This document shows, in pieces, positions 8,068-36,541 of a DNA stretch of 64,000 bases. The stretch spans positions 62,001-126,000 of the forward strand of contig OMYP01000007.1 in assembly GCA_900315345.1 (NCBI GenBank), in the 5' to 3' direction. Numbering within the stretch: position 1 is the first letter of the stretch; each line of letters opens with the position of its first letter. Both the position numbers and the translations under genes were made by a program. This DNA is from an uncultured Selenomonadales bacterium. Its GTDB lineage: Bacteria; Bacillota; Negativicutes; Acidaminococcales; Acidaminococcaceae. The notes beneath the pieces were generated by a model. It was not told where the DNA came from. It ran no database searches and saw only the letters and a program-made list of their open reading frames with translations.

Positions 8068-9531
8068 TTAGTCAGTTTTTTCATTTTCCACCAGGGTTTT
8101 ATCTTTTAAAAAGGGTTTCATGTCTTCAGCCGCTACCGTTGCCATGTGAATTGCCTCTTCATCCTGGAAATCTTCGGCAAGGAGACGGTCCTGAATTACA
8201 TAAAACTTCCCGGTATAGTGCCAGAAAGCAGGTTTCGCCGTGGCAAAGGCATCTCCCGGTTTTCCCGTCAGGTTCAAAACCTTAACAAAATCCGGATTTT
8301 TGGTATCAAACATTTCCCCAAGTTTCAGGTTCTCGCCGGTTTTCATATTAAAATTATATAAGGTCCGGATAACCTCTCCCTTCCGGTTCCGCCTGCCCAG
8401 CTCCAAGCTCAGCAGATCCGGTCCGGCAAATTTTACCTGGAAGGCCCGTTCCTCTTCTTCCGGAGAATTTTCAAACCAGTCCTGCAGCGTTTTATTTATT
8501 TTATTCTGCAGGTCCGGCTGTTCTTCAATCGCCACAACCGGCCGGCTGATGCTGCGATCCCCGATAAAGGCCCGGCGCGGATAGATTTTCCATTTTCCCG
8601 CCCCATCCGTTTGATTGGCAGTATCTTCCTGTAACTCATCCGGCGTATCAACCAGCGTTACTTCTTCCGGATTCCATTTCCCGTCCGCCTGCCCCCAGCG
8701 CACTGCAAGGCGCCCCAGCAGAGACCTCTGGTCGGCAGCCAGTATGTTCTGCTCTGTAAAGAGCTTCCCATCCAGCCGGGTCAGGGACGCTACCTCGGTA
8801 ATATGGGGTTGCAGATAGGTTTTTGCAATCGATCCGTCATCACGGTAAAGATGCAGTATATTTCCGGCTTTTCCGGAAAAAGACAGGGTTTGTGGTTCTT
8901 TTCCGGATTCCGGCAGCTCACAGGTAACCTGGAACCGGAAATCCGGCATATATTTTGCTTGCGCCGTGATCCCCAGGGCATCTGCTCCGGAAAACACTTC
9001 TTTTACCTTCTTCTCCCCGGAAAAATCCAATATCCTGCAGCCTACCGCGCCATTTTTCCCGCCTTTGGCCGCCAGCAGCAAAATCTGGTCATGAGGTTTG
9101 TCCGATATTTTTATTTCAGTCTTTTCTTTTTTGCCGGTTTTGTCCGTTTCTTCTTTTAATGCTTCTATCAGGGCATTCAGTTCCTGTTCTGCCTTTTCTT
9201 CCTGACTGATTTTTTTCTTCTTTTCCTTTTTTACTTTCCCGGTATCTTCTTTATTCACCGGCATTTTTTCCAACAGGCAGTGATAGCCGCCTTCCAGGTC
9301 GGACTTCCAGGCAGAGACCATTTTTCCTTCTTTATTGCGGATCATGATCCACAGATCAGAATAATAATTGCTGCCCGGGATTTTTTTGTCGCCGGTCAGT
9401 TCCACAACTTTTTTTACCCCGCTGCCATCCACATCTGCTTCAATTTTTGCCAGCACGGCAGCACGGGCAGACGAAAAAGGCACTGTTACCAGCAACAGTG
9501 CGCTTAATCCTGTAATAACCTGTTTCAGCAT
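8068..9531 (-). CDS. Secreted protein of unknown function with a DUF3298-like C-terminus
   Basis: A 487-residue exported protein: cleavable signal peptide with an SARA-A site near residue 24. An N-terminal part (about 25-100) begins KIEADVDGSGVKKVVELTGD, reminiscent of repeat-type beta domains. A Lys/Glu-rich linker (about 100-145) is probably coiled or disordered, and a long mixed region follows. The C-terminal ~150 residues contain FNMKTGENLKLGEMFDTKN, which resembles the DUF3298/DUF4163 module of RsiV-type and cell-surface proteins. No catalytic motif is recognised. ATG at 9531 after GGAGAG. It stands alone between the efflux operon and the SLC13 permease. I cannot name a function. Confidence 0.65.
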   Translation of the reverse strand: MLKQVITGLSALLLVTVPFSSARAAVLAKIEADVDGSGVKKVVELTGDKKIPGSNYYSDLWIMIRNKEGKMVSAWKSDLEGGYHCLLEKMPVNKEDTGKVKKEKKKKISQEEKAEQELNALIEALKEETDKTGKKEKTEIKISDKPHDQILLLAAKGGKNGAVGCRILDFSGEKKVKEVFSGADALGITAQAKYMPDFRFQVTCELPESGKEPQTLSFSGKAGNILHLYRDDGSIAKTYLQPHITEVASLTRLDGKLFTEQNILAADQRSLLGRLAVRWGQADGKWNPEEVTLVDTPDELQEDTANQTDGAGKWKIYPRRAFIGDRSISRPVVAIEEQPDLQNKINKTLQDWFENSPEEEERAFQVKFAGPDLLSLELGRRNRKGEVIRTLYNFNMKTGENLKLGEMFDTKNPDFVKVLNLTGKPGDAFATAKPAFWHYTGKFYVIQDRLLAEDFQDEEAIHMATVAAEDMKPFLKDKTLVENEKTD

Positions 9532-19832: not shown

Positions 19833-20075
19833 AAAAAACGCCCTTGCCTGCTTTGCAGACAGGGGCGAATTAATTCGCGGTACCACCCTGATTTGTCACT
19901 CATTGGGTTCCGGCTTTTTGCAGCCGGGCGATTAACGCACGCTGACGGCGCCTGCTACTTTATTCACAGGCACAGCTCCCGGATGAGATGGTCTTTAGCC
20001 GGGAAAAGCTCGCACCAGCCGCTTTTTCTCTGAACGCCTTCCAAAAACCAATTTCCGTTCTTCGCATTTAACACA
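19833..20075 (-). promoter_or_regulatory. T-box riboswitch controlling leuCDB
   Basis: The conserved T-box core AGGGTGGTACCGCG is at 19876-19889 on the minus strand. A terminator stem (19839-19867) with TTTTTTG (19833-19838) follows. Upstream are a long stem I with a GGTGCGAG stretch and a CTC triplet at 19985-19987 that could be the leucine specifier. Uncharged tRNA-Leu would stabilise the antiterminator. Specifier choice is by position and context and has not been folded. Confidence 0.92.
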
Positions 20076-27010: not shown

Positions 27011-27240
27011 AAAAAACTCCCGTCCTGCTGTAAGGACGGGAGTTCGTTTGTTTATGAACTCGCGTGGTGCCACCTTAGTTCACTGCAATCAAAAATTACA
27101 GCCTCATTTCCGGGATATCGGCCGGAACCGGACAGGTTGCAACCCCTGCCTTCTCCAGAGCGGAATTCGGTCTTCGACAGAGCGGTTCACACTGCCCACC
27201 GCCTCTCTGTACTGCCTGAGACTTACTTTTCTCTTTCATA
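27011..27240 (-). promoter_or_regulatory. T-box riboswitch controlling serA
   Basis: The T-box core AAGGTGGCACCACGCG sits at 27061-27076. A 15-position perfect terminator stem (27015-27044, ACTCCCGTCCT arm) and TTTTTT (27011-27016) follow. Upstream is a long paired region with GGCGGTGGG; a TCC triplet at 27162-27164 is a plausible serine specifier. The core uses GGCACCACG where the leu T-box uses GGTACCGCG. It should sense uncharged tRNA-Ser. Confidence 0.9.
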
Positions 27241-27268
27241 GAAATTGCGTTTTGCTTTTATAAGTGAG

Positions 27269-27454: not shown

Positions 27455-27883
27455 TTACTTTCCTGCCAGAAATTCCAATGCCAGCAGATATCCTTTCAGG
27501 CCCAATCCGCAGATCTGGCCGGTACATCCTGCCGTTGTTACACAGTGGTGACGGAATTCTTCCCGCTGGTGGATATTGCTGATATGTACCTCTACAGCAG
27601 GCAGGCTGACAGATTTTAACGCATCCAGGACTGCCACGCTGTAATGGGTATAGGCCCCCGGATTCATTACAATTCCATCCACTGTCCCGTAGCATTCCTG
27701 GATCCAGTCCACCAGCTGCCCTTCGGAGTTACTTTGTTTTATTTCAACCTCAATATGAAGTTCATCCGCCTTTTTCCGGATCATATCACAGAGATCCGTA
27801 TAAGTTGCCGTCCCGTAGACGTTTTTCTCCCGAATACCCAGCATGTTGATATTCGGCCCGTTCAGTACAAGAATTTTTTTCAT
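27455..27883 (-). CDS. aroQ: 3-dehydroquinate dehydratase, type II
   Basis: Third step of the shikimate pathway. 142 residues, the normal length of the dodecameric type II enzyme. GPNINMLG at the start, the catalytic tyrosine segment (KNVYG), NPGAYTHYS, and VEVHISNIHQREEFR are all present. It is the last gene of the aro operon, 100 bp after aroK, and precedes the large terminator-like repeat. Confidence 0.97.
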   Translation of the reverse strand: MKKILVLNGPNINMLGIREKNVYGTATYTDLCDMIRKKADELHIEVEIKQSNSEGQLVDWIQECYGTVDGIVMNPGAYTHYSVAVLDALKSVSLPAVEVHISNIHQREEFRHHCVTTAGCTGQICGLGLKGYLLALEFLAGK

Positions 27884-27983: not shown

Positions 27984-28487
27984 TTACCTTTTTTCTGCTG
28001 ATTCAGCCGCTTCTGCCAGACATCGCAGCACGTCCTGCAGATTACCTGCATTGCGCACGGTACTATCCGCTGCCTGTCGGTACAATGCTTCCCGCTGCCG
28101 GTACAGGTCGTAGATACGCTGCCGCCCCGCCGCCAGCAACGGTCTCGTTTCCGTATCCACGTCCCCGATAATATCTTCGGGAGACCTGTCCAGAAAAATA
28201 ATAGTCCCGTTCTCTTTTAAATACTTTATATTCTCCTGCCGCATCACCACGCCGCCGCCCATGGCCAGTACTTTATCCTGCATCCGGGCAAGGCGTTTTA
28301 CCGTCTTTGTTTCCTGATTACGGAAATACGCTTCACTTACGGCAAACAGTTCCGGAATCGTCTTCCCAGCATCCTTTTCAATCTCAGGATCCGCATCGAT
28401 AAAATCCCGGTTCATAATTTCTGCCAGTTTTCTTCCCAGCGTACTTTTCCCGCTTCCGGGCATTCCGATCAGTACAATATTTTTCAT
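27984..28487 (-). CDS. aroK: Shikimate kinase
   Basis: Phosphorylates shikimate with ATP. 167 residues from the ATG at 28487, which has GGTGA ahead; the open frame reaches four codons further to a TTG. Walker A is GMPGSGKSTLG, the shikimate-binding DADPEIE and GGGVVMR follow, and the lid has the usual RPLL segment. Located between aroE and aroQ in the operon. Confidence 0.97.
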   Translation of the reverse strand: MKNIVLIGMPGSGKSTLGRKLAEIMNRDFIDADPEIEKDAGKTIPELFAVSEAYFRNQETKTVKRLARMQDKVLAMGGGVVMRQENIKYLKENGTIIFLDRSPEDIIGDVDTETRPLLAAGRQRIYDLYRQREALYRQAADSTVRNAGNLQDVLRCLAEAAESAEKR

Positions 28488-28535
28488 TTTATTCACCAAT
28501 TTTGTTTAAGTCATTGCGTAAGCAGAGTGTAAAAA

Positions 28536-29339
28536 TCATAACAGCAATCTCATTTTTTCTGTTATATCTGCAATCAGTCCGGTTTCAAGCTTCCGTCCCA
28601 GCCATATCTCGTCTGCCGCCACAGCCTGGGCCACCAGCATGAAAAGGCCGTTCACCGCAGGTTTCCCCTGTTGTTTTGCCAGCTGCATGAACCGGGTCTC
28701 TGCCGGATTATAGATAATATCCACCGCTGCGCCAAAATGTTCCATCACCGCTGCGTCAACAGGCGAGGCGTCCACCGAAGGAAACATTCCAACCGGCGTA
28801 CAGTTTATCAGCAGATTCCCCGCCATATGTTTCAAATCGTCATAGTTTTTTACCTCATAGCGGGTCCTGATATCTTCCGGGGCATTTTCAATTTTCCGCG
28901 AGATGACTGTGATATGTTTTGCCTTCATGTCCCTGATACATTGCAGGATGGCCCGGCTGGCCCCTCCCGTGCCTAACACACACACCTCTTTTCCGGTGGG
29001 GACAAGGCCATTGTGTTCCAGCAAACGGGCGAAGCCGAAATAATCTGTATTGTATCCTTCTGCCTTTTCGCCGTTAAAAAAGATCGTATTCACTGCCCCG
29101 ATAGCTTTTGCTTCCGTTGCAACATCATCAAGGCTTTCCATGACAGCCACTTTATGGGGAATAGTAACATTCAGCCCCAGATATGTTTTACGAAGCTCTG
29201 CAACTTTATCCGCCAGGCACTCCCCGGGAACTTCAATCAGTTCATACGTCGCCGTAATGCCCAGCTGCCGGAACACTTCCTGATGAATCTGCGGGGACAG
29301 GCTGTGTCCCAGTTTTGCCCCCAATAATCCGAATTTCAT
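28536..29339 (-). CDS. aroE: Shikimate dehydrogenase
   Basis: NADPH-dependent reduction of 3-dehydroshikimate. 267 residues from the ATG at 29339, preceded by CGGAGA; the longer open frame adds 21 codons without a ribosome site. Shikimate-binding SLSPQIH, catalytic lysine in VTIPHK, NTDYFGF and the nucleotide loop GTGGASRA are conserved. Follows pheA by 80 bp. Confidence 0.96.
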   Translation of the reverse strand: MKFGLLGAKLGHSLSPQIHQEVFRQLGITATYELIEVPGECLADKVAELRKTYLGLNVTIPHKVAVMESLDDVATEAKAIGAVNTIFFNGEKAEGYNTDYFGFARLLEHNGLVPTGKEVCVLGTGGASRAILQCIRDMKAKHITVISRKIENAPEDIRTRYEVKNYDDLKHMAGNLLINCTPVGMFPSVDASPVDAAVMEHFGAAVDIIYNPAETRFMQLAKQQGKPAVNGLFMLVAQAVAADEIWLGRKLETGLIADITEKMRLLL

Positions 29340-29419
29340 GATGGTCTCCGTTCCACCGCTTCTGACAGCGGCATAATCAGCCGTGAAAGAACTTGCTTTC
29401 ATGCCGTTCCTTGTGTAAG

Positions 29420-30550
29420 CTACGACCTGTCGCTCACATAGTTCCCCAGGATTTTACAGTAGGCACTGTATTCCGCTACGTCCTGCAAACCTTTCCGCAC
29501 TTTTGGATCCTCCAGATTTCCCGTCAGGTCAATATGGAAAAAATATTCCCAGGAGCGCCCTTCCATTGGACGGGATTCCAGATTCAGCATGTTAAGGCCC
29601 CCGTTGTAAAAATGCTGCAGCACTTTGTACAGGGACCCGGGTTCATGCTGGGTAGCAATGACCACGGTGATTTTGTCTGCATCCGGCCGGTGCTCCGGCT
29701 GATCTGCAATAATTATAAACCGTGTGTGGTTAGCAGAATTGTAATTGATATTTTCCGCCAGAATATCCAGCCCGTACAACTTTGCCGCCTGCCGGGACGC
29801 CACTGCCCCTTTTGCTGGGTCGCCGCTCTCGCTTACCATCTGGGCACTGCGTGCCGTATTAAAGAAAGGTATCAGCTCAATAGCCGGGTGCTTTTTAAAA
29901 AATTCACGGCTCTGCTCCAATCCCTGAGGGTGGGAATACACTTGTTTCAGTCCATCGATGGAAGCGCCGGGAAGTCCCAGCAGGTTCTGATCTACTTTTA
30001 TGATTTTTTCCCCGACGATATGACAGTCGTACTTACGTATCAGGTCATATACTTCCGTAATACCACCGGTAGATGAATTCTCGATGGGCAGTACCCCGTA
30101 TTTGATTTCATGGTTCTTTATGGCCGCCGCCACATCCTCAAAATGGACAAAGTTCATTTCTACCTTAGCAATATCGGCAAAATAGTCCTCCAGGGCCTGG
30201 TGACTGAAGGAGCCTCGTACGCCCTGATACCCCACCCGGACAGGATCGGCCTTTTGATTTTTTTTCTTAATATTGGCCGCCAGAATATCAATTTGCATAT
30301 TACGGCTGGTCTCCATGATTTTTTCCATGATACGCTGCATATGAGGCGCGTACGCAGGATTCTTCAGTTGTCCCACCGTTTTGGCAATGACCTGGTTTTC
30401 CCGTTCTCTATCCAGCACCTGCATGTTTCGGGCATCCTTGTAGGCCGCTACCTGCCGTACCACATCCATCCGCTGTTCCAGAGCCTCTACCAGGATCGAA
30501 TCCAGCCGGTCTATTTCCTGACGCAGTTTCGTTAAATCCGGTTCTGTCAC
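29420..30550 (-). CDS. pheA: Bifunctional chorismate mutase / prephenate dehydratase (P-protein)
   Basis: Makes phenylpyruvate from chorismate. An AroQ-type chorismate mutase occupies about residues 1-90 (LRQEIDRLDSILVEALEQR). The prephenate dehydratase domain (about 105-280) has the GYQGVRGSFSHQAL start and the catalytic NHTRFIII. A C-terminal ACT domain (about 290-370) includes the LESRP phenylalanine-binding motif, so feedback inhibition by Phe is likely. The start is GTG at 30550 after AAAGGA; an ATG nearby is out of frame. Fourteen bases follow aroC. The leader peptide before the operon, rich in Phe and Tyr codons, fits this product. Confidence 0.97.
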   Translation of the reverse strand: MTEPDLTKLRQEIDRLDSILVEALEQRMDVVRQVAAYKDARNMQVLDRERENQVIAKTVGQLKNPAYAPHMQRIMEKIMETSRNMQIDILAANIKKKNQKADPVRVGYQGVRGSFSHQALEDYFADIAKVEMNFVHFEDVAAAIKNHEIKYGVLPIENSSTGGITEVYDLIRKYDCHIVGEKIIKVDQNLLGLPGASIDGLKQVYSHPQGLEQSREFFKKHPAIELIPFFNTARSAQMVSESGDPAKGAVASRQAAKLYGLDILAENINYNSANHTRFIIIADQPEHRPDADKITVVIATQHEPGSLYKVLQHFYNGGLNMLNLESRPMEGRSWEYFFHIDLTGNLEDPKVRKGLQDVAEYSAYCKILGNYVSDRS

Positions 30551-30564
30551 GTTCTTTCATCCTT

Positions 30565-31650
30565 TCATTCCAATAACAAATCCAGTAAAGTCCATGCTGT
30601 AACCGCTTCAATTACAGGAACAGCCCTGGGCACAATGCAGGGGTCATGCCTTCCTTTTATTTCCAGCATCACATTCTTACCGGAGGCCAGGTCAACTGTC
30701 TGCTGGGACCGGCTGATGGAGGGGGTCGGTTTGATTGCCACCCTGAACAGTACCGGCATACCATTAGTGATACCTCCGGTGATGCCGCCGTTGTTGTTTT
30801 TCGTTGTCCTTACCTGATTGCAGTCAAATTTCATAGGGTCGTTGGCTTCAGTGCCTCTCATGCCGGCTATCGCAAACCCGGCTCCAAATTCCACACCCTT
30901 CACAGCCGGTACGGAGAACAGCACATGGGCCAGACGGCTTTCCACAGAATCAAAAAAGGGATCTCCCAGGCCCGGCGGCATTCCCACTGCCATGACCTCT
31001 ACCACGCCACCAACACTGTCCCCATCTTCCCGTGCTTTAAGGACTTCCGCCTCCATCAAAGGCCCTTTGCTTTCATCCAGCACCGGCAGGATATGATTCC
31101 GCAGCTTCTGAAGCCGATCAATGCTTTCACCCAGCGGGTCGAACAGTTCATCCTTTACTTTCCCGATCCGCGCGATGTGAGCTCCCACCGTTATTCCTTT
31201 TGCCGCCAGCACGGTTTTCGCCACTGCCCCCGTAAATACTAGAGGGGCTGTCAGGCGTCCGGAAAAATGCCCGCCGCCACGGTAATCGTTATATCCTTTA
31301 TATTTTACCCTGCCTGCATAATCCGCATGGCCGGGCCGCATCTGATACTTCAGTATGCTGTAATCCCTGGAATGCTGGTCGCTGTTGGGAATCAGCACGC
31401 AAAGTGGCGTTCCCGTTGCTTTTCCTTCGAAAACACCGCTCTCTATAATGAAAGCATCCGTCTCCTTCCGCTGGGTGCTCATCAGGTTTTTGCCCGGAGC
31501 CCTGCGGGCCATCTCTTCTTTGATAAACCCTTCCTCTATCGGAGTTCCCGGCGGAAGGCCGTCTAAAACAAGGCCAATGCCCTTCCCATGGGATTCGCCA
31601 AAAATAGTCATTCGAATATTACGCCCAAAGGTTGCCCCCATACCACGCAT
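30565..31650 (-). CDS. aroC: Chorismate synthase
   Basis: Last step of the shared aromatic pathway, FMN-dependent. 361 residues from the ATG at 31650, 11 bp after aroA. The family start GATFGRNIRMTIFGESHGKG and the third signature GRHDPC are intact. The open frame runs 55 codons further upstream inside aroA, but that part is not family sequence. A second ATG three codons downstream is a possible start; the ribosome site is weak for both, so coupling to aroA is likely. Confidence 0.95.
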   Translation of the reverse strand: MRGMGATFGRNIRMTIFGESHGKGIGLVLDGLPPGTPIEEGFIKEEMARRAPGKNLMSTQRKETDAFIIESGVFEGKATGTPLCVLIPNSDQHSRDYSILKYQMRPGHADYAGRVKYKGYNDYRGGGHFSGRLTAPLVFTGAVAKTVLAAKGITVGAHIARIGKVKDELFDPLGESIDRLQKLRNHILPVLDESKGPLMEAEVLKAREDGDSVGGVVEVMAVGMPPGLGDPFFDSVESRLAHVLFSVPAVKGVEFGAGFAIAGMRGTEANDPMKFDCNQVRTTKNNNGGITGGITNGMPVLFRVAIKPTPSISRSQQTVDLASGKNVMLEIKGRHDPCIVPRAVPVIEAVTAWTLLDLLLE

Positions 31651-31661
31651 CACTTCTTTCT

Positions 31662-32969
31662 TTATTTTAACCCGGCCTGTCCGCCAATGGAAGCATAGTC
31701 CTTCCAGAATTCCGGATAGGATTTGGACACGCTTTCTCCTCCCGTAAGTGTAACAGGCTTTTTGCAAGCCAATGCCGCTACCGCCATGCTCATGGCGATG
31801 CGATGATCGTTCCATGCATCCACCACAGCATCACCGGTCAGCCCATCCGGGTTTCCATGGATCAGCAGCCCTTCCGGTTCTTCTGTGATATCTGCACCCA
31901 GCTTCCGCAGCTCTGAATACATGGCAGCCAGCCGGTCACACTCCTTAATTCGCAGCCGCCCTGCATTGATGATATGAGTTGTCCCTTCTGCCACAGCCGC
32001 CGCCACAGATAACACAGGCACCAGGTCCGGACAGTCCGCCGCATCGATAACACAGCCACGGAGGCGGGAGGGCCTGACCATAAATGCATCGCCATTTTCT
32101 GCAATCGTCGCACCCATTGTTTGAAGGATCTGCAGGATCGCCTTATCTCCCTGCAGGGAACCTGCATCCAGCCCGCGACAGGCTAACACGTCCCTGCCGC
32201 CGACAGCCCCCGCTACCAGCCAGAATGCCGCCTGGGACCAGTCCCCTTCAACATCGGTCCGTTCTGAAGGGGCCTTATATCGCTGACCTCCCGGAATGCG
32301 GTAGTGTAATTCGTCAGTTCTCTCGATCATAATGTCAAACTGTCCCAAAGCACTTAATGTCAGCTCTATGTAACTTGCCGATTCCAACGGTGGAAGGATC
32401 TCCAGCGTCGAATCATCTTCAAGCAGCGGCAGGGCAAATAAAAGTCCCGAGACAAACTGGGAACTCACATCTCCCGGAAGCACATAGGCGCCAGGTTCCA
32501 GTCTTCCATCCACCGTCAGGGGCAGCTGTCCCTTTTCCCCGGTCCGGTACCGCAATCCCTGCCTGTCGAAAATCTCATAATAAGGATATAAGGGACGGGA
32601 AACCAGTTTTCCCTGCCCAATAAAAGTCACCGGCACGTTACACAGCGCCCCCAGAGGAATAAAGAAGCGAAGTGTGGAGCCGGACTCCCCGCAATCCATG
32701 GTAACCGGATCCGCAGGAAAACGCCGGGGCCAGTTATACCTGAAAGCCCTGCGCCCGTCATATCGGGATGGGACACCGGTCACAGTCGCCCCTAATCCCG
32801 CAAGGCAGCGATTGGTGGCTTCTATATCTTTTGAAATAGCAATATTGTCTACAATGCTTTGCTGTGAAGACAGCCCGGCACAGATACACATCCGGTGTCC
32901 CATACTTTTGGAAGAAGGGATCAGCACGCTGCCCTGTACAGCAGAAGGCCTAATCTGATATGTTTTCAC
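31662..32969 (-). CDS. aroA: 5-enolpyruvylshikimate-3-phosphate synthase
   Basis: Transfers enolpyruvate from PEP to shikimate 3-phosphate. The 435-residue length is standard. Substrate-binding SSKSMGHRM, the PEP-binding DCGESGSTLRFFIPLGA loop and NDHRIAMSMAV are conserved. It starts with GTG at 32969, whose last two bases are the beginning of the aroB stop (GTGA overlap), so it is translated by coupling to aroB. Confidence 0.97.
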   Translation of the reverse strand: MKTYQIRPSAVQGSVLIPSSKSMGHRMCICAGLSSQQSIVDNIAISKDIEATNRCLAGLGATVTGVPSRYDGRRAFRYNWPRRFPADPVTMDCGESGSTLRFFIPLGALCNVPVTFIGQGKLVSRPLYPYYEIFDRQGLRYRTGEKGQLPLTVDGRLEPGAYVLPGDVSSQFVSGLLFALPLLEDDSTLEILPPLESASYIELTLSALGQFDIMIERTDELHYRIPGGQRYKAPSERTDVEGDWSQAAFWLVAGAVGGRDVLACRGLDAGSLQGDKAILQILQTMGATIAENGDAFMVRPSRLRGCVIDAADCPDLVPVLSVAAAVAEGTTHIINAGRLRIKECDRLAAMYSELRKLGADITEEPEGLLIHGNPDGLTGDAVVDAWNDHRIAMSMAVAALACKKPVTLTGGESVSKSYPEFWKDYASIGGQAGLK

Positions 32970-34045
32970 GACGCATCACCGTCCGGCAAAAATTTTGGCA
33001 ACCCGGAAAATTCTATCTTCTGTAAAAAACTTTCCCCTATCGTCTTCAGCAGGACCAAAGTAATCTCGGATCCCCGTTTCTTTTTATCCAATGCAATCGC
33101 TTTCAGGAAATCCGCCTGGTCCATCTGTACGGAAACAGGCAGATTAAATTTTTTCAGCAGCCCTTCAATTCTCTCTGCCGTTCCCGGTACCGTCAGCCCC
33201 AGCTTTTCAGCCTGCCGGGTCAGCAACACCATACCGATGGCGACTCCTTCCCCGTGGCTGTACGTATCAAAACGGAAAGTTTTTTCCACCGCATGTCCCA
33301 GTGTATGTCCGAAGTTCAGCAGCATTCGTTCGCCGGTATCAAATTCATCATGCTCTACGATACGTGCTTTTATATTGCAGCAGGCTTCGATAATCTCATC
33401 CCCGTGGGTCAGCAGATCCCCGTCATCCTGCAGCGCCTCCAGTCTCCCGAACAAGTCCCGGTCACAGATACAACCGTATTTAATAACTTCCGCCATACCG
33501 TCGTGAAGATAACGCCCCGGCAGCGTCTGCAACAAATTTGGATCGATAAAAACCCCTTTCGGCTGATAAAAGGCACCTACCAGATTTTTTCCCTCCGGCA
33601 GGTCGACGGCTACCTTCCCCCCTACGCTGCTGTCTACGGCAGCCAGCAGGGATGTGGGAATCTGTACAAAGGCAATCCCCCGCAAGAACGTAGCCGCTGC
33701 CAGCCCGCCCATGTCGCCGGTTACACCGCCACCCAGCGCCACGACCATGTCGCTCCGGGTCAGTCCGGCCTTGGCCAGACCACCGTACAAGTTTCCCAAG
33801 GTTATAAGATTCTTGCTTTCCTCCCCGGCTTTAAAGGTCAGTACGGTAACCGCCAATCCTTCCCGTTCCAGGGACCGACGAAGCACATCAGCATATAATG
33901 GTCCCACATTACTGTCGGTAATGACAGCTGCTTTTTCCACTTTGGGCAGCAGCGCCTTAACCTTCTTTCCAACCTTTTCTAAAAGCCCTCTTTCAATCTC
34001 TATATTGTAACTTTTCGTTCCCAGATCCACGTGGACGTTTCCCAT
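32966..34045 (-). CDS. aroB: 3-dehydroquinate synthase
   Basis: Second step of the shikimate pathway, NAD- and metal-dependent. 359 residues from the ATG at 34045 with GGAGG five bases ahead; a TTG four codons upstream overlaps that site and is rejected. Visible motifs are the NAD loop GGGVTGDMGGLAAATF, DSSVGGKVAVD, and the metal ligands in GHTLGHAVE and SHGEGVAIGM. Overlaps aroA by four bases. Confidence 0.97.
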   Translation of the reverse strand: MGNVHVDLGTKSYNIEIERGLLEKVGKKVKALLPKVEKAAVITDSNVGPLYADVLRRSLEREGLAVTVLTFKAGEESKNLITLGNLYGGLAKAGLTRSDMVVALGGGVTGDMGGLAAATFLRGIAFVQIPTSLLAAVDSSVGGKVAVDLPEGKNLVGAFYQPKGVFIDPNLLQTLPGRYLHDGMAEVIKYGCICDRDLFGRLEALQDDGDLLTHGDEIIEACCNIKARIVEHDEFDTGERMLLNFGHTLGHAVEKTFRFDTYSHGEGVAIGMVLLTRQAEKLGLTVPGTAERIEGLLKKFNLPVSVQMDQADFLKAIALDKKKRGSEITLVLLKTIGESFLQKIEFSGLPKFLPDGDAS

Positions 34046-34075
34046 CGTATCCTCCAAATTTTTGCTGCATTCGCC

Positions 34076-34948
34076 TCAGTACAGCATCCGTCTTCTTGGG
34101 CCTGCTTCCCGCATAATCGTCCTGAGCATTTCCCGGTCATTCTCCGCAATAGCTTTCTTCCACCGCTCCAGCTGGCTCTGATAATTTTCGATCTCCGCTA
34201 TGACGTTTTCCCGGTTGGACAGGAACAGGTCGCTCCACAGCTCCGGATTGATATCTGCCACCCTTGTAGCGTCCCGGAACCCGCCCGCAATAAAGTACTG
34301 TGTATTTTCATTATAGGAAGCGCTGTTTACCAGGGCTACCGCTGTAATATGGGGCAAATCGCTGGTGTATGCGATAATCTTGTCATGATCTTCTGCAGTA
34401 ACCTTCACGGACCGGGCGCAGCCAATGGCTTTTGCAAATCCTTCCAGCCAGCCTACCGCCTCTTCCGTATTCTTTTCCGTCGGTACGATAATGTAGTTGG
34501 AATCGTTAAAAATCCCGGCGTCCGACATGCCCAGCCCGCTGCCCTGCCGCCCGGCCATCGGATGTCCTGACAGGAACTCACAGCCTTCCGGAAGCATTGC
34601 CTGAATTTCCCGGGGCATTGATCCTTTTACTCCGGTGGCATCCGTCAGCAGCATGCCTTCCGCAAAATTTGCCAGGTTACTGCGGACAAACTCAACAATT
34701 GCTTCCGGGTACACGCTGCAGATAACAACATCGGCTTCCATCAGGTTCTTCCCATCTTCCTCCACGATTTCATCAATCATGTTGGCATTCAGACAGGCCC
34801 GGGCGATTCCATGGCTGATGTCCATTCCCAGAATCCGTTTTACCTTCAGTTTGCGAAGGGCTTTGGCGTAAGAGCCGCCTATCAGCCCCAGTCCCACGAT
34901 GGCAAAGGTCAATTCCTGCAACGGTTTTTCCAGATATGGTTTTGTCAT
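34076..34948 (-). CDS. tyrA: Prephenate dehydrogenase
   Basis: NAD-dependent conversion of prephenate to 4-hydroxyphenylpyruvate for tyrosine. A 290-residue, single-function TyrA without chorismate mutase or C-terminal ACT domain. The Rossmann motif GLGLIGGSYAKAL, SGHPMAG, and the catalytic histidine region SDLPHITAVAL are present. Lacking an ACT domain, it may rely on control of transcription. AGGGGAG precedes the ATG. It lies 140 bp after aroF and 30 bp before aroB. Confidence 0.95.
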   Translation of the reverse strand: MTKPYLEKPLQELTFAIVGLGLIGGSYAKALRKLKVKRILGMDISHGIARACLNANMIDEIVEEDGKNLMEADVVICSVYPEAIVEFVRSNLANFAEGMLLTDATGVKGSMPREIQAMLPEGCEFLSGHPMAGRQGSGLGMSDAGIFNDSNYIIVPTEKNTEEAVGWLEGFAKAIGCARSVKVTAEDHDKIIAYTSDLPHITAVALVNSASYNENTQYFIAGGFRDATRVADINPELWSDLFLSNRENVIAEIENYQSQLERWKKAIAENDREMLRTIMREAGPRRRMLY

Positions 34949-35088: not shown

Positions 35089-36102
35089 TCACATGTCCCT
35101 GCCAATAATCCGTGCTATGCCTTTTAATTCCCCCATCAGCTCCGCAAAACGTTCCGGTTTCAGGGACTGGGCTCCGTCGCACAGGGCCCGCTCCGGATCA
35201 TTATGGACTTCGATCAGGAGCCCGTCTGCCCCTACCGCAACCGCAGCTTTGGCCAGGGCAGGTACCATCCACCAAAGTCCTGCCGCATGACTGGGATCCA
35301 CGATAACCGGCAGGTGGCTCAGTTTTTTTGCAGCACAGACTGCGCTGAGATCCAGCGTATTTCGTGTATATGTCTCATAAGTACGAATGCCCCGCTCACA
35401 CAAAATAACATTGGTATTCCCTTCTGCCATAATATATTCCGCACTCATGATCCATTCCTGCACCGTGGCGGAAAGTCCCCTCTTTAACAGGATTGGTTTA
35501 TTTGTCTTACCCAGTTCTTTCAGCAGGGAATAATTCTGCATGTTCCGGGCGCCTACCTGGATAAGGTCCACGTCCTCCACAAACCGGTCCAGCACATCTG
35601 CGCTCATGATTTCCGTTACAATAGGAAGCCCCGTTTCTTCTCTGGCCTCCTTCAGCAGATCCAGTCCGGGCATTCCCATTCCCTGGAAAGAATAAGGGGA
35701 AGTACGGGGCTTGAAGGCTCCACCCCGCATCAGATGCGCGCCCCCCATCTTAACCGATTTCGCTACACCGATCACCTGTTCCCGGGTCTCCACGCTGCAG
35801 GGACCGGCAATGACCTGCACCTGCCTGCCACCTATCTTTACCCCGGCCACGTCAATCACGCTGTCATCGGGATGGAAGGCACGGTTTGCCCGTTTAAAAG
35901 GCTCCTGCACCCGCAGAACCTTTTCGATCCAGTCATTAACCATGATATCATGGGGGTTCAGGATGCTGGTATCGCCGACGATTCCTAAAATGGCAGCCTG
36001 ATTGCCGGTACTCAGGTCGATTTTAAAGCCTTTTGCCTCCAGACCGGCAATGATCTTATTTCTCTCTTCTACAGGGGCGTTGGGTTTCATTACGATAATC
36101 AT
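35089..36102 (-). CDS. aroF: DAHP synthase with N-terminal regulatory domain
   Basis: Condenses PEP and erythrose 4-phosphate, the entry step of aromatic synthesis. A 337-residue type I-beta enzyme: an N-terminal ferredoxin-like domain (about residues 1-70), as in the Thermotoga-type DAHP synthase where it binds Tyr/Phe for feedback, then the catalytic barrel with AGPCSVET, GGAFKPRTSPYSFQG and the metal ligands in DPSHAAG. AAGGAGAG precedes the ATG. First structural gene of the operon, 158 bp after the attenuator terminator. Confidence 0.96.
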   Translation of the reverse strand: MIIVMKPNAPVEERNKIIAGLEAKGFKIDLSTGNQAAILGIVGDTSILNPHDIMVNDWIEKVLRVQEPFKRANRAFHPDDSVIDVAGVKIGGRQVQVIAGPCSVETREQVIGVAKSVKMGGAHLMRGGAFKPRTSPYSFQGMGMPGLDLLKEAREETGLPIVTEIMSADVLDRFVEDVDLIQVGARNMQNYSLLKELGKTNKPILLKRGLSATVQEWIMSAEYIMAEGNTNVILCERGIRTYETYTRNTLDLSAVCAAKKLSHLPVIVDPSHAAGLWWMVPALAKAAVAVGADGLLIEVHNDPERALCDGAQSLKPERFAELMGELKGIARIIGRDM

Positions 36103-36259: not shown

Positions 36260-36287
36260 AAAAAAGCGGGCTCGTAAAAGAGCCCGC
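36260..36287 (-). terminator. Attenuator terminator before aroF
   Basis: Perfect 8-bp G+C-rich stem (GCGGGCTC / GAGCCCGC, six-base loop) at 36266-36287, followed on the minus strand by TTTTTTG. It sits between the leader peptide and the first structural gene, 65 bp past the leader stop codon. Confidence 0.92.
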
Positions 36288-36351
36288 CTGTTTCCGGTTG
36301 GCAGCCTTTGAAAATTCTCCGGCCTTTTCTGTTTACGATTCCATGTTATCT

Positions 36352-36447
36352 TCAGTTTTCCCGCACGAAATAGCCATAGCCGTAATAATAGCTATAGCTA
36401 AAGGAAAAACCGTATTCAGCAGTAAACATGGAATTTATTTTCATCAT
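36352..36447 (-). CDS. Tyr/Phe-rich leader peptide of the aro operon (attenuation)
   Basis: A 31-codon reading frame, read ATG at 36447 or the next codon ATG at 36444, with GCAGGTG just upstream (five-base spacing to the second ATG). The product begins MMKINSMFTAEY and continues with GFSFSYSYYYGYGYF, then VRENstop. It has seven Tyr and four Phe codons in 31, no Trp. It is placed between a good promoter and the intrinsic terminator at 36260-36287, directly before the operon that makes Phe and Tyr. GGUUUUUCC within the aromatic codons can pair with GGGAAAAC near its end, as a pause hairpin would. I could not find by eye a clear antiterminator that takes up the terminator's 5' arm. Function as a sensor of Tyr/Phe-tRNA charging is inferred from codon content and position. 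Confidence 0.85.
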   Translation of the reverse strand: MMKINSMFTAEYGFSFSYSYYYGYGYFVREN

Positions 36448-36512: not shown

Positions 36513-36541
36513 AGTTTAAACCTGTTTAAGCATCCCGTCAA
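36513..36541 (-). promoter_or_regulatory. Promoter of the aro operon
   Basis: TTGACG at 36536-36541, 17-bp spacer, TAAACT at 36513-36518. It would start RNA near 36506, about 60 bases before the leader peptide. Confidence 0.65.

Follow-up and report, generated by a model that had tools for sequence, protein, structure and literature searches.

A short open reading frame (ORF) rich in Tyr and Phe codons precedes a complete aromatic operon in the window, by which we mean the whole 64-kb stretch of DNA that was analysed, and is very probably the leader of a ribosome-mediated transcription attenuator, which would sense the charging of tRNA-Tyr and tRNA-Phe, in most relatives also of tRNA-Trp, and control the aromatic pathway. 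The window is from a rumen bacterium, a species of Succiniclasticum (Acidaminococcaceae), the genus of its closest named relatives, and its leader belongs to a widespread attenuator family that had formerly been only glimpsed; two surveys list F/Y-coding upstream ORFs (uORFs) before shikimate genes or aroF. The initial annotation had proposed a leader and attenuator in front of this operon; classical attenuation is supported by the conservation of the leader, by its association with aromatic genes in two classes, Negativicutes and Clostridia, and by two specific pairings of the RNA, 1:2 and 2:3, described below.

The Leader ORF and the Aromatic Operon

The leader elements and the aromatic genes are all encoded on the minus strand. 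The ORF extends from 36447 to 36352 (MMKINSMFTAEYGFSFSYSYYYGYGYFVREN) and its 31 codons include seven for Tyr, four for Phe and none for Trp, exactly as had been counted. The start is more likely at the second ATG, 36444, which would give a peptide of 30 residues (MKINSMFTAEYGFSFSYSYYYGYGYFVREN, 36352..36444), because of the position of the putative ribosome binding site AGGTG (36454-36450) and of the genus alignment, in which the start codon of the congeners falls at the position matching 36444. The AGGTG is kept across this alignment, and the leader is predicted to be translated. A promoter, TTGACG-17-TAAACT (36513..36541), was found by a consensus scan and is kept in the congeners; thus, the two signals that had been placed before the leader are both backed by conservation in the genus, although the bare consensus match of the promoter does not score above shuffles. 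Downstream, a G+C-rich intrinsic terminator (36289..36264), with a 10-bp stem in which 7 of the 10 pairs are G-C, is followed by a U tract (TTTTTTGTTTA) and then by aroF, in the order described at the outset.

The Tyr+Phe run is unusual: the window reaches a maximum of 11 Tyr and Phe per 18 residues, and in none of 40 Markov-shuffled sequences of 64 kb did the count rise above 9. This figure alone is not decisive, because the window holds another Phe-rich stretch on the plus strand (about 9.1 kb), and it is conservation that decides. The second stretch, at about 9088-9250 (VRYFYFSLFFFAGFVRFF), is open and dense in Phe and Tyr, and may either encode a membrane protein or lie antisense to another gene. 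The leader before aroF is kept throughout Succiniclasticum and its relatives and the ORF is open in all the congeners read. An open frame equipped with a promoter and a ribosome site would also suit a functional small protein, with the terminator merely ending the ORF's own transcript, but the conservation is limited to the aromatic core, lengths and stops differ, and the location is fixed 5' of aromatic genes, so that we give this explanation next to no weight.

Behind the leader, nine genes follow in the same orientation, in most cases separated by only a short gap: aroF, encoding DAHP synthase and putatively the first controlled gene (35089..36102; NCBIfam NF006421, TIGR01361); tyrA, encoding prephenate dehydrogenase (34076..34948; below curated cut-offs, with nearly all matched families being prephenate or arogenate dehydrogenase); aroB (32966..34057; TIGR01357); aroA (31662..32969; TIGR01356); aroC (30565..31614; NF003793, TIGR00033, with the profile starting at residue 67-68 of a longer ORF); pheA, encoding chorismate mutase/prephenate dehydratase (29420..30550), aroE (28536..29402) and aroK (27984..28499); and aroQ, encoding type II dehydroquinate dehydratase (27455..27883; TIGR01088). 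These genes, which presumably form a single transcript, cover all steps from DAHP synthesis to chorismate as well as the terminal enzymes of the Phe and Tyr branches, and the operon is therefore complete, as had been claimed.

Distribution of the Leader Family

Upstream of aroF relatives, the same type of leader was found in Succiniclasticum, Phascolarctobacterium, Acidaminococcus, Sporomusa and many Clostridium species. From these upstream regions, and from no others, 40 leader peptides were used for a family profile, which the window leader, itself one of the 40 rows, matches with E 4.3e-11. Searching 380 Negativicutes genomes gave 136 genomes with a match at E<=0.1 and 108 matches at E<=5e-4. 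The great majority of the latter (91/108) share their strand with a listed DAHP synthase and sit 84-347 bp 5' of it. The remainder comprises 14 matches that lead to tyrA, aroA-aroC, aroK or an additional DAHP synthase, and three that are situated at the end of a contig or close to it. A search 5' of aroF in other Negativicutes had been recommended, and both the aromatic codon run and the terminator proved to be conserved there. In other Negativicutes families, the weak profile matches (E 0.01-0.1) were put down to chance. Among the Clostridia, 48 of 391 genomes match at E<=1e-5, and all the 35 loci read (Clostridia and one Sporomusa) have an aromatic gene next, namely aroF, tyrA, aroB or aroK in 34 cases and an aroG-type DAHP synthase in one. 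Every examined match with a readable downstream gene therefore leads to an aromatic gene, chiefly aroF and also aroA-aroC, aroK, aroB, tyrA or the aroG-type gene; since the profile was built from aroF leaders only, the targets other than aroF represent independent evidence. The terminator is present after 166 of 168 leaders.

The mean composition of 162 leaders is 6.1 Phe, 5.0 Tyr and 1.0 Trp. The description of the leader as a Tyr/Phe peptide without Trp is thus true of this genus but not of the family, in which Phe codons are about as frequent as those for Tyr and one Trp is usually found. Four of the aroF relatives without the leader (Massilimicrobiota, Faecalitalea and others) carry a T-box at the same place.

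In several Acidaminococcaceae (G024, G033-G039, G045, G049, G050, G056) two aroF genes, often in tandem, follow a single leader. One Clostridium magnum genome has four leader copies (L236, L240, L241, L242), which stand in front of aroF, of two genes resembling aroK and of an aroG-type DAHP synthase, a regulon that was apparently built through copying of the leader.

Antiterminator Pairing across the Family

In the mechanism that we propose, three strands would compete. Region 1, in the early codons just 5' of the aromatic run, can pair near region 2; region 2, at the end of the ORF or slightly past it, can pair with region 3, the 5' arm and loop of the terminator; and the pairing of region 3 with region 4 would lead to termination. 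When charged aromatic tRNAs are abundant, the ribosome would reach the stop codon and disturb region 2, and the terminator would form; when they are scarce, the ribosome would stall early in the run and cover region 1, leaving region 2 to hold region 3, and transcription would proceed through the operon from aroF onward. With no translation, 1:2 would form and transcription would end. Ribosome stalling, the direction of the response and pausing are presumptive parts of this scheme.

Shuffles made species by species gave only a modest signal for the antiterminator (mean z -0.97) and, for this reason, a swap test was needed. So that no pair had to be picked by eye, the stretch running from the aromatic core up to the terminator was matched against the 5' arm and loop of a terminator, either its own or a swapped one, in 71 mutually dissimilar representatives, with 20000 permutations in which the tree is not explicitly modelled. 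Region 2 pairs with its own region 3 at -10.6 kcal/mol and with swapped ones at -8.7 kcal/mol (z -7.2; 0/20000 permutations), and the signal is found in both the Negativicutes (z -4.5) and the Clostridia (z -4.5). Neither of the two controls showed specific pairing, the 3' arm of the terminator giving z 0.15 and the 5' UTR upstream z +1.67. In the same test, the 5' part of the leader has two specific partners, region 2 (z -7.9) and the segment immediately 5' of it (z -11.2), and in 62 of the 71 representatives the best 1:2 duplex has a 3' arm that overlaps region 2; the aromatic core itself showed no own-partner pairing with region 2 (z -0.6). A specific signal was also absent between region 2 and the stretch separating it from the terminator, so that a small hairpin located there in the window is not family-wide. 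At family level, the predicted pairings 1:2, 2:3 and 3:4 are those of a classical attenuator.

A typical 2:3 pair in the Clostridia is CUAAUGAGUU with GGCUCAUUA, and variants changed on both sides are UAAAGCCCGUUUA/GGAUGGGCUUUGC, UAAAGCUCGCUU/AAGGCGAGCUUUGG and CCUUUGAGCCUGU/GGGCGGGUUCAGAG; in the Acidaminococcaceae, CGUAAACAGAxGCC pairs with GGCUCUxUUAC. Two leaders of another Negativicutes family (L218 and L229, family f11) have a different terminator arm, AAGAGGUUCUU, with GAAUCUCU or GAACCUUU as its predicted leader partner, a compensated variant of the antiterminator.

The effect of a ribosome was modelled by means of its footprint. The antiterminator probability was higher with the ribosome at the aromatic codons than at the stop codon in 59/71 representatives (p 8e-7), and higher than with no ribosome in 47/71 (p 0.0014). 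In the profiles inspected, the modelled effect was often largest right at the start of the aromatic run, on its first codons, which is what would be expected if region 1 were covered by a stalled ribosome.

The Proposed Switch in the Window's Own Leader

In the leader of the window, region 1 (36425..36434) would form the 5' arm of a long-range helix, P1, with a 3' arm directly past the stop codon (36338..36347), the pairing that corresponds to the family z of -11.2. Three candidate antiterminators were compared, AGGCUGCC:GGCGGGCU, AAAAGGCC:GGCUCUUUU with one bulge, and GUAAACAGA:UCUUUUAC. The last one, pairing region 2 (36336-36328) with region 3 (36281-36274), is the preferred candidate because the motif reported above for the Acidaminococcaceae recurs in that family. 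Where the initial annotation had seen no obvious antiterminator, a candidate does exist, and it is backed by the family-wide swap test, although it is not obvious by eye. Between region 2 and the terminator lies the small hairpin mentioned above, GGCC ... GGCU (36303..36324), with 73% of cells paired and an uncertain role.

When the leader was folded with masked ribosome footprints, the complete terminator always won at equilibrium, and the modelled antiterminator probability was 0.60 for the free RNA, 0.55 with the ribosome stalled and 0.49 with the ribosome at the stop; the switch modelled in this sequence is weak. A terminator far stabler than the antiterminator, together with such a weak switch, is what would be seen in this genome if the terminator were constitutive, or if the leader acted via translation or Rho (polarity) with no 2:3 antiterminator. 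We consider this very improbable, since across the 71 representatives region 2 has its specific partner in the 5' arm of its own terminator, the 3' arm giving no such signal, and the terminator loops contain conserved sequences (UUUUACG, CUCAUUA) that match region 2.

In Succiniclasticum, the ORF ends 15 nt 5' of region 2 and P1 abuts region 2 with no clear overlap, P1 and the 2:3 helix not being mutually exclusive; in Phascolarctobacterium, region 2 is still inside the coding frame. Past the leader stops (36317-36352, minus strand), the old frame reads on as ...IVNRKGR, which matches the coding VNRCR of Phascolarctobacterium: in Succiniclasticum the leader ORF has become shorter. Covariation at genus level is sparse, with changes on both sides at two P1 pairs and at one terminator pair, the latter a compensatory change in L049. 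Covariation within the genus alone was mostly not above shuffles, the sequences being too alike for most measures to be informative. The attenuation mechanism is backed by the family, and we infer its details in this species.

A Hairpin within the Aromatic Codons

The aromatic run itself folds as UAGCUGGxGCUA-loop-UAGCxCUGGCUA, a predicted hairpin with its arms at 36400-36390 and 36381-36371 in the window. In 51 species its stability exceeds that of synonymous recodings (mean z -2.8) and of reordered codons (mean z -2.3); an arm-swap value was also obtained, which is biased because the best local hairpin had been picked. Codon use in the run is uneven, Ser being encoded by AGC in 104 of 117 cases and Gly by GGC in 69 of 103. 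The Ser, Gly and Ala codons lie between the A/U-rich Phe and Tyr codons of the stem and give it G and C. This accounts for the apparent conservation of the peptide in both classes, a case in which the explanation lies in codon content together with RNA fold.

The same observations bear on a nascent-chain sensor, that is, an arrest peptide like TnaC or SecM, in which sensing or stalling would depend on the nascent chain inside the exit tunnel rather than on its codons. The pattern F-S-x-G-Y-[YF]-F-S-x-G-Y-F, common to Negativicutes and Clostridia, would fit such a peptide. However, no invariant non-aromatic residue was found in the core among the 40 aligned leaders, SAG, STG, SVG, SFG, GYG, GAG and SFD all occur, and the contribution of the S, G and A codons, mostly AGC and GGC, to the G/C of the hairpin explains the pattern with no selection on the peptide. 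An arrest peptide is thus very improbable.

Pause hairpins are known in the trp and his leaders and, by analogy, the hairpin of the aromatic codons is probably a pause or timing hairpin for RNA polymerase. A bolder reading, which we regard as rather unlikely, is that of an old, mobile sensor made of codons and RNA, which would read the aromatic tRNAs together, whose sensing codons would form the regulatory hairpin, and which, in Bacillota-type classes, would have traded places with T-boxes in front of one and the same gene; in the strongest form of this idea, the hairpin would be a ribosome roadblock with an active part in sensing. If it were true, peptide sequence, codon choice and RNA fold would be one constrained object.

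Relation to Known Systems

Amino acid control in Bacillota-type organisms is usually told in terms of T-boxes and protein regulators and codon-counting switches had been considered rare in Negativicutes and Clostridia. In Rfam 15, no family reached the gathering score over the leader, either in the window or in 17 relatives. A leader attenuator of common architecture in two classes, absent from Rfam, would fill a gap in the control of shikimate flux, both in clostridia and in bacteria of the rumen and gut. Its cultured carriers, Succiniclasticum ruminis, Phascolarctobacterium faecium, Clostridium tyrobutyricum and C. beijerinckii, allow testing.

The enterobacterial attenuators (trpL, pheL, pheM, hisL) have a run of product codons, an intrinsic terminator, mutually exclusive pairings and pathway genes 3'. 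The aromatic leaders are alike in having an ORF with product codons, the terminator, predicted exclusive pairings and the pathway genes downstream. They differ in that they occur in Negativicutes and Clostridia, mix Phe, Tyr and often Trp codons, and cover the common pathway; moreover, the run itself is a conserved hairpin and region 1 lies 5' of the run. The likeness is one of architecture, and no sequence relationship is claimed.

The literature search, in which most subscription papers were out of reach, found no paper describing the mechanism or the distribution of the aromatic leader family. Two surveys list uORFs that may belong to it. It has been reported that uORFC-13-1 occurs only upstream of aroF, in 24 examples from Acholeplasma and environmental sequences, with at least one Phe codon; it has a promoter and a ribosome site, stands directly before an intrinsic terminator and contains an extra base-paired substructure, and attenuation was proposed (PMC8632094). 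Compared by text description only, its features agree with those of the aromatic leaders, the difference being that it was reported only from Acholeplasma and environmental sequences. That both are the same family is plausible because some MAGs labelled Acholeplasmataceae (L070, L072, L073) carry the aromatic leader. The aroF of these three MAGs is Acidaminococcaceae-like (70-72% identity), as is their leader, and the label is probably wrong. In the other survey, two F- and Y-coding uORFs were tied to shikimate genes (Fig. 6b there), with no mechanism or distribution given (PMC6429828); they resemble the aromatic leader, by description, in their F/Y codons and in the genes concerned.

The initial annotation had described such leaders as known mainly from proteobacteria and some actinobacteria, with Firmicutes mostly using T-boxes or TRAP. 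Leader peptides are not unknown in Firmicutes, as ribosome-mediated ones of hisS/hisZ were reported in bacilli (PMC2965389) and an attenuator peptide rich in Leu is reported for S. aureus (PMC5794164). Both are ribosome-mediated and from Firmicutes, but concern other amino acids and genes and have no known sequence relationship with the aromatic leader. The window contains two T-boxes, both belonging to genes located past the aromatic operon, at 27029-27248 (minus strand) before serA and at 19858-20071 (minus strand) before leuC.

A T-box reads the tRNA directly, with no ORF. It resembles the aromatic leader in that tRNA charging controls biosynthesis, and it takes the same site before aroF in some homologues. 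A T-box as the identity of the leader was rejected, since the covariance model RF00230 has no match there, its two matches in the window being the ones just given. The same genome thus has T-boxes for other pathways, before serA, leuC and a TrpB-like gene, and a leader peptide before the aromatic operon. T-box matches in the genome amount to 13, and include matches before genes resembling ilvN, leuA, valS, thrS and metA and before the TrpB-like gene.
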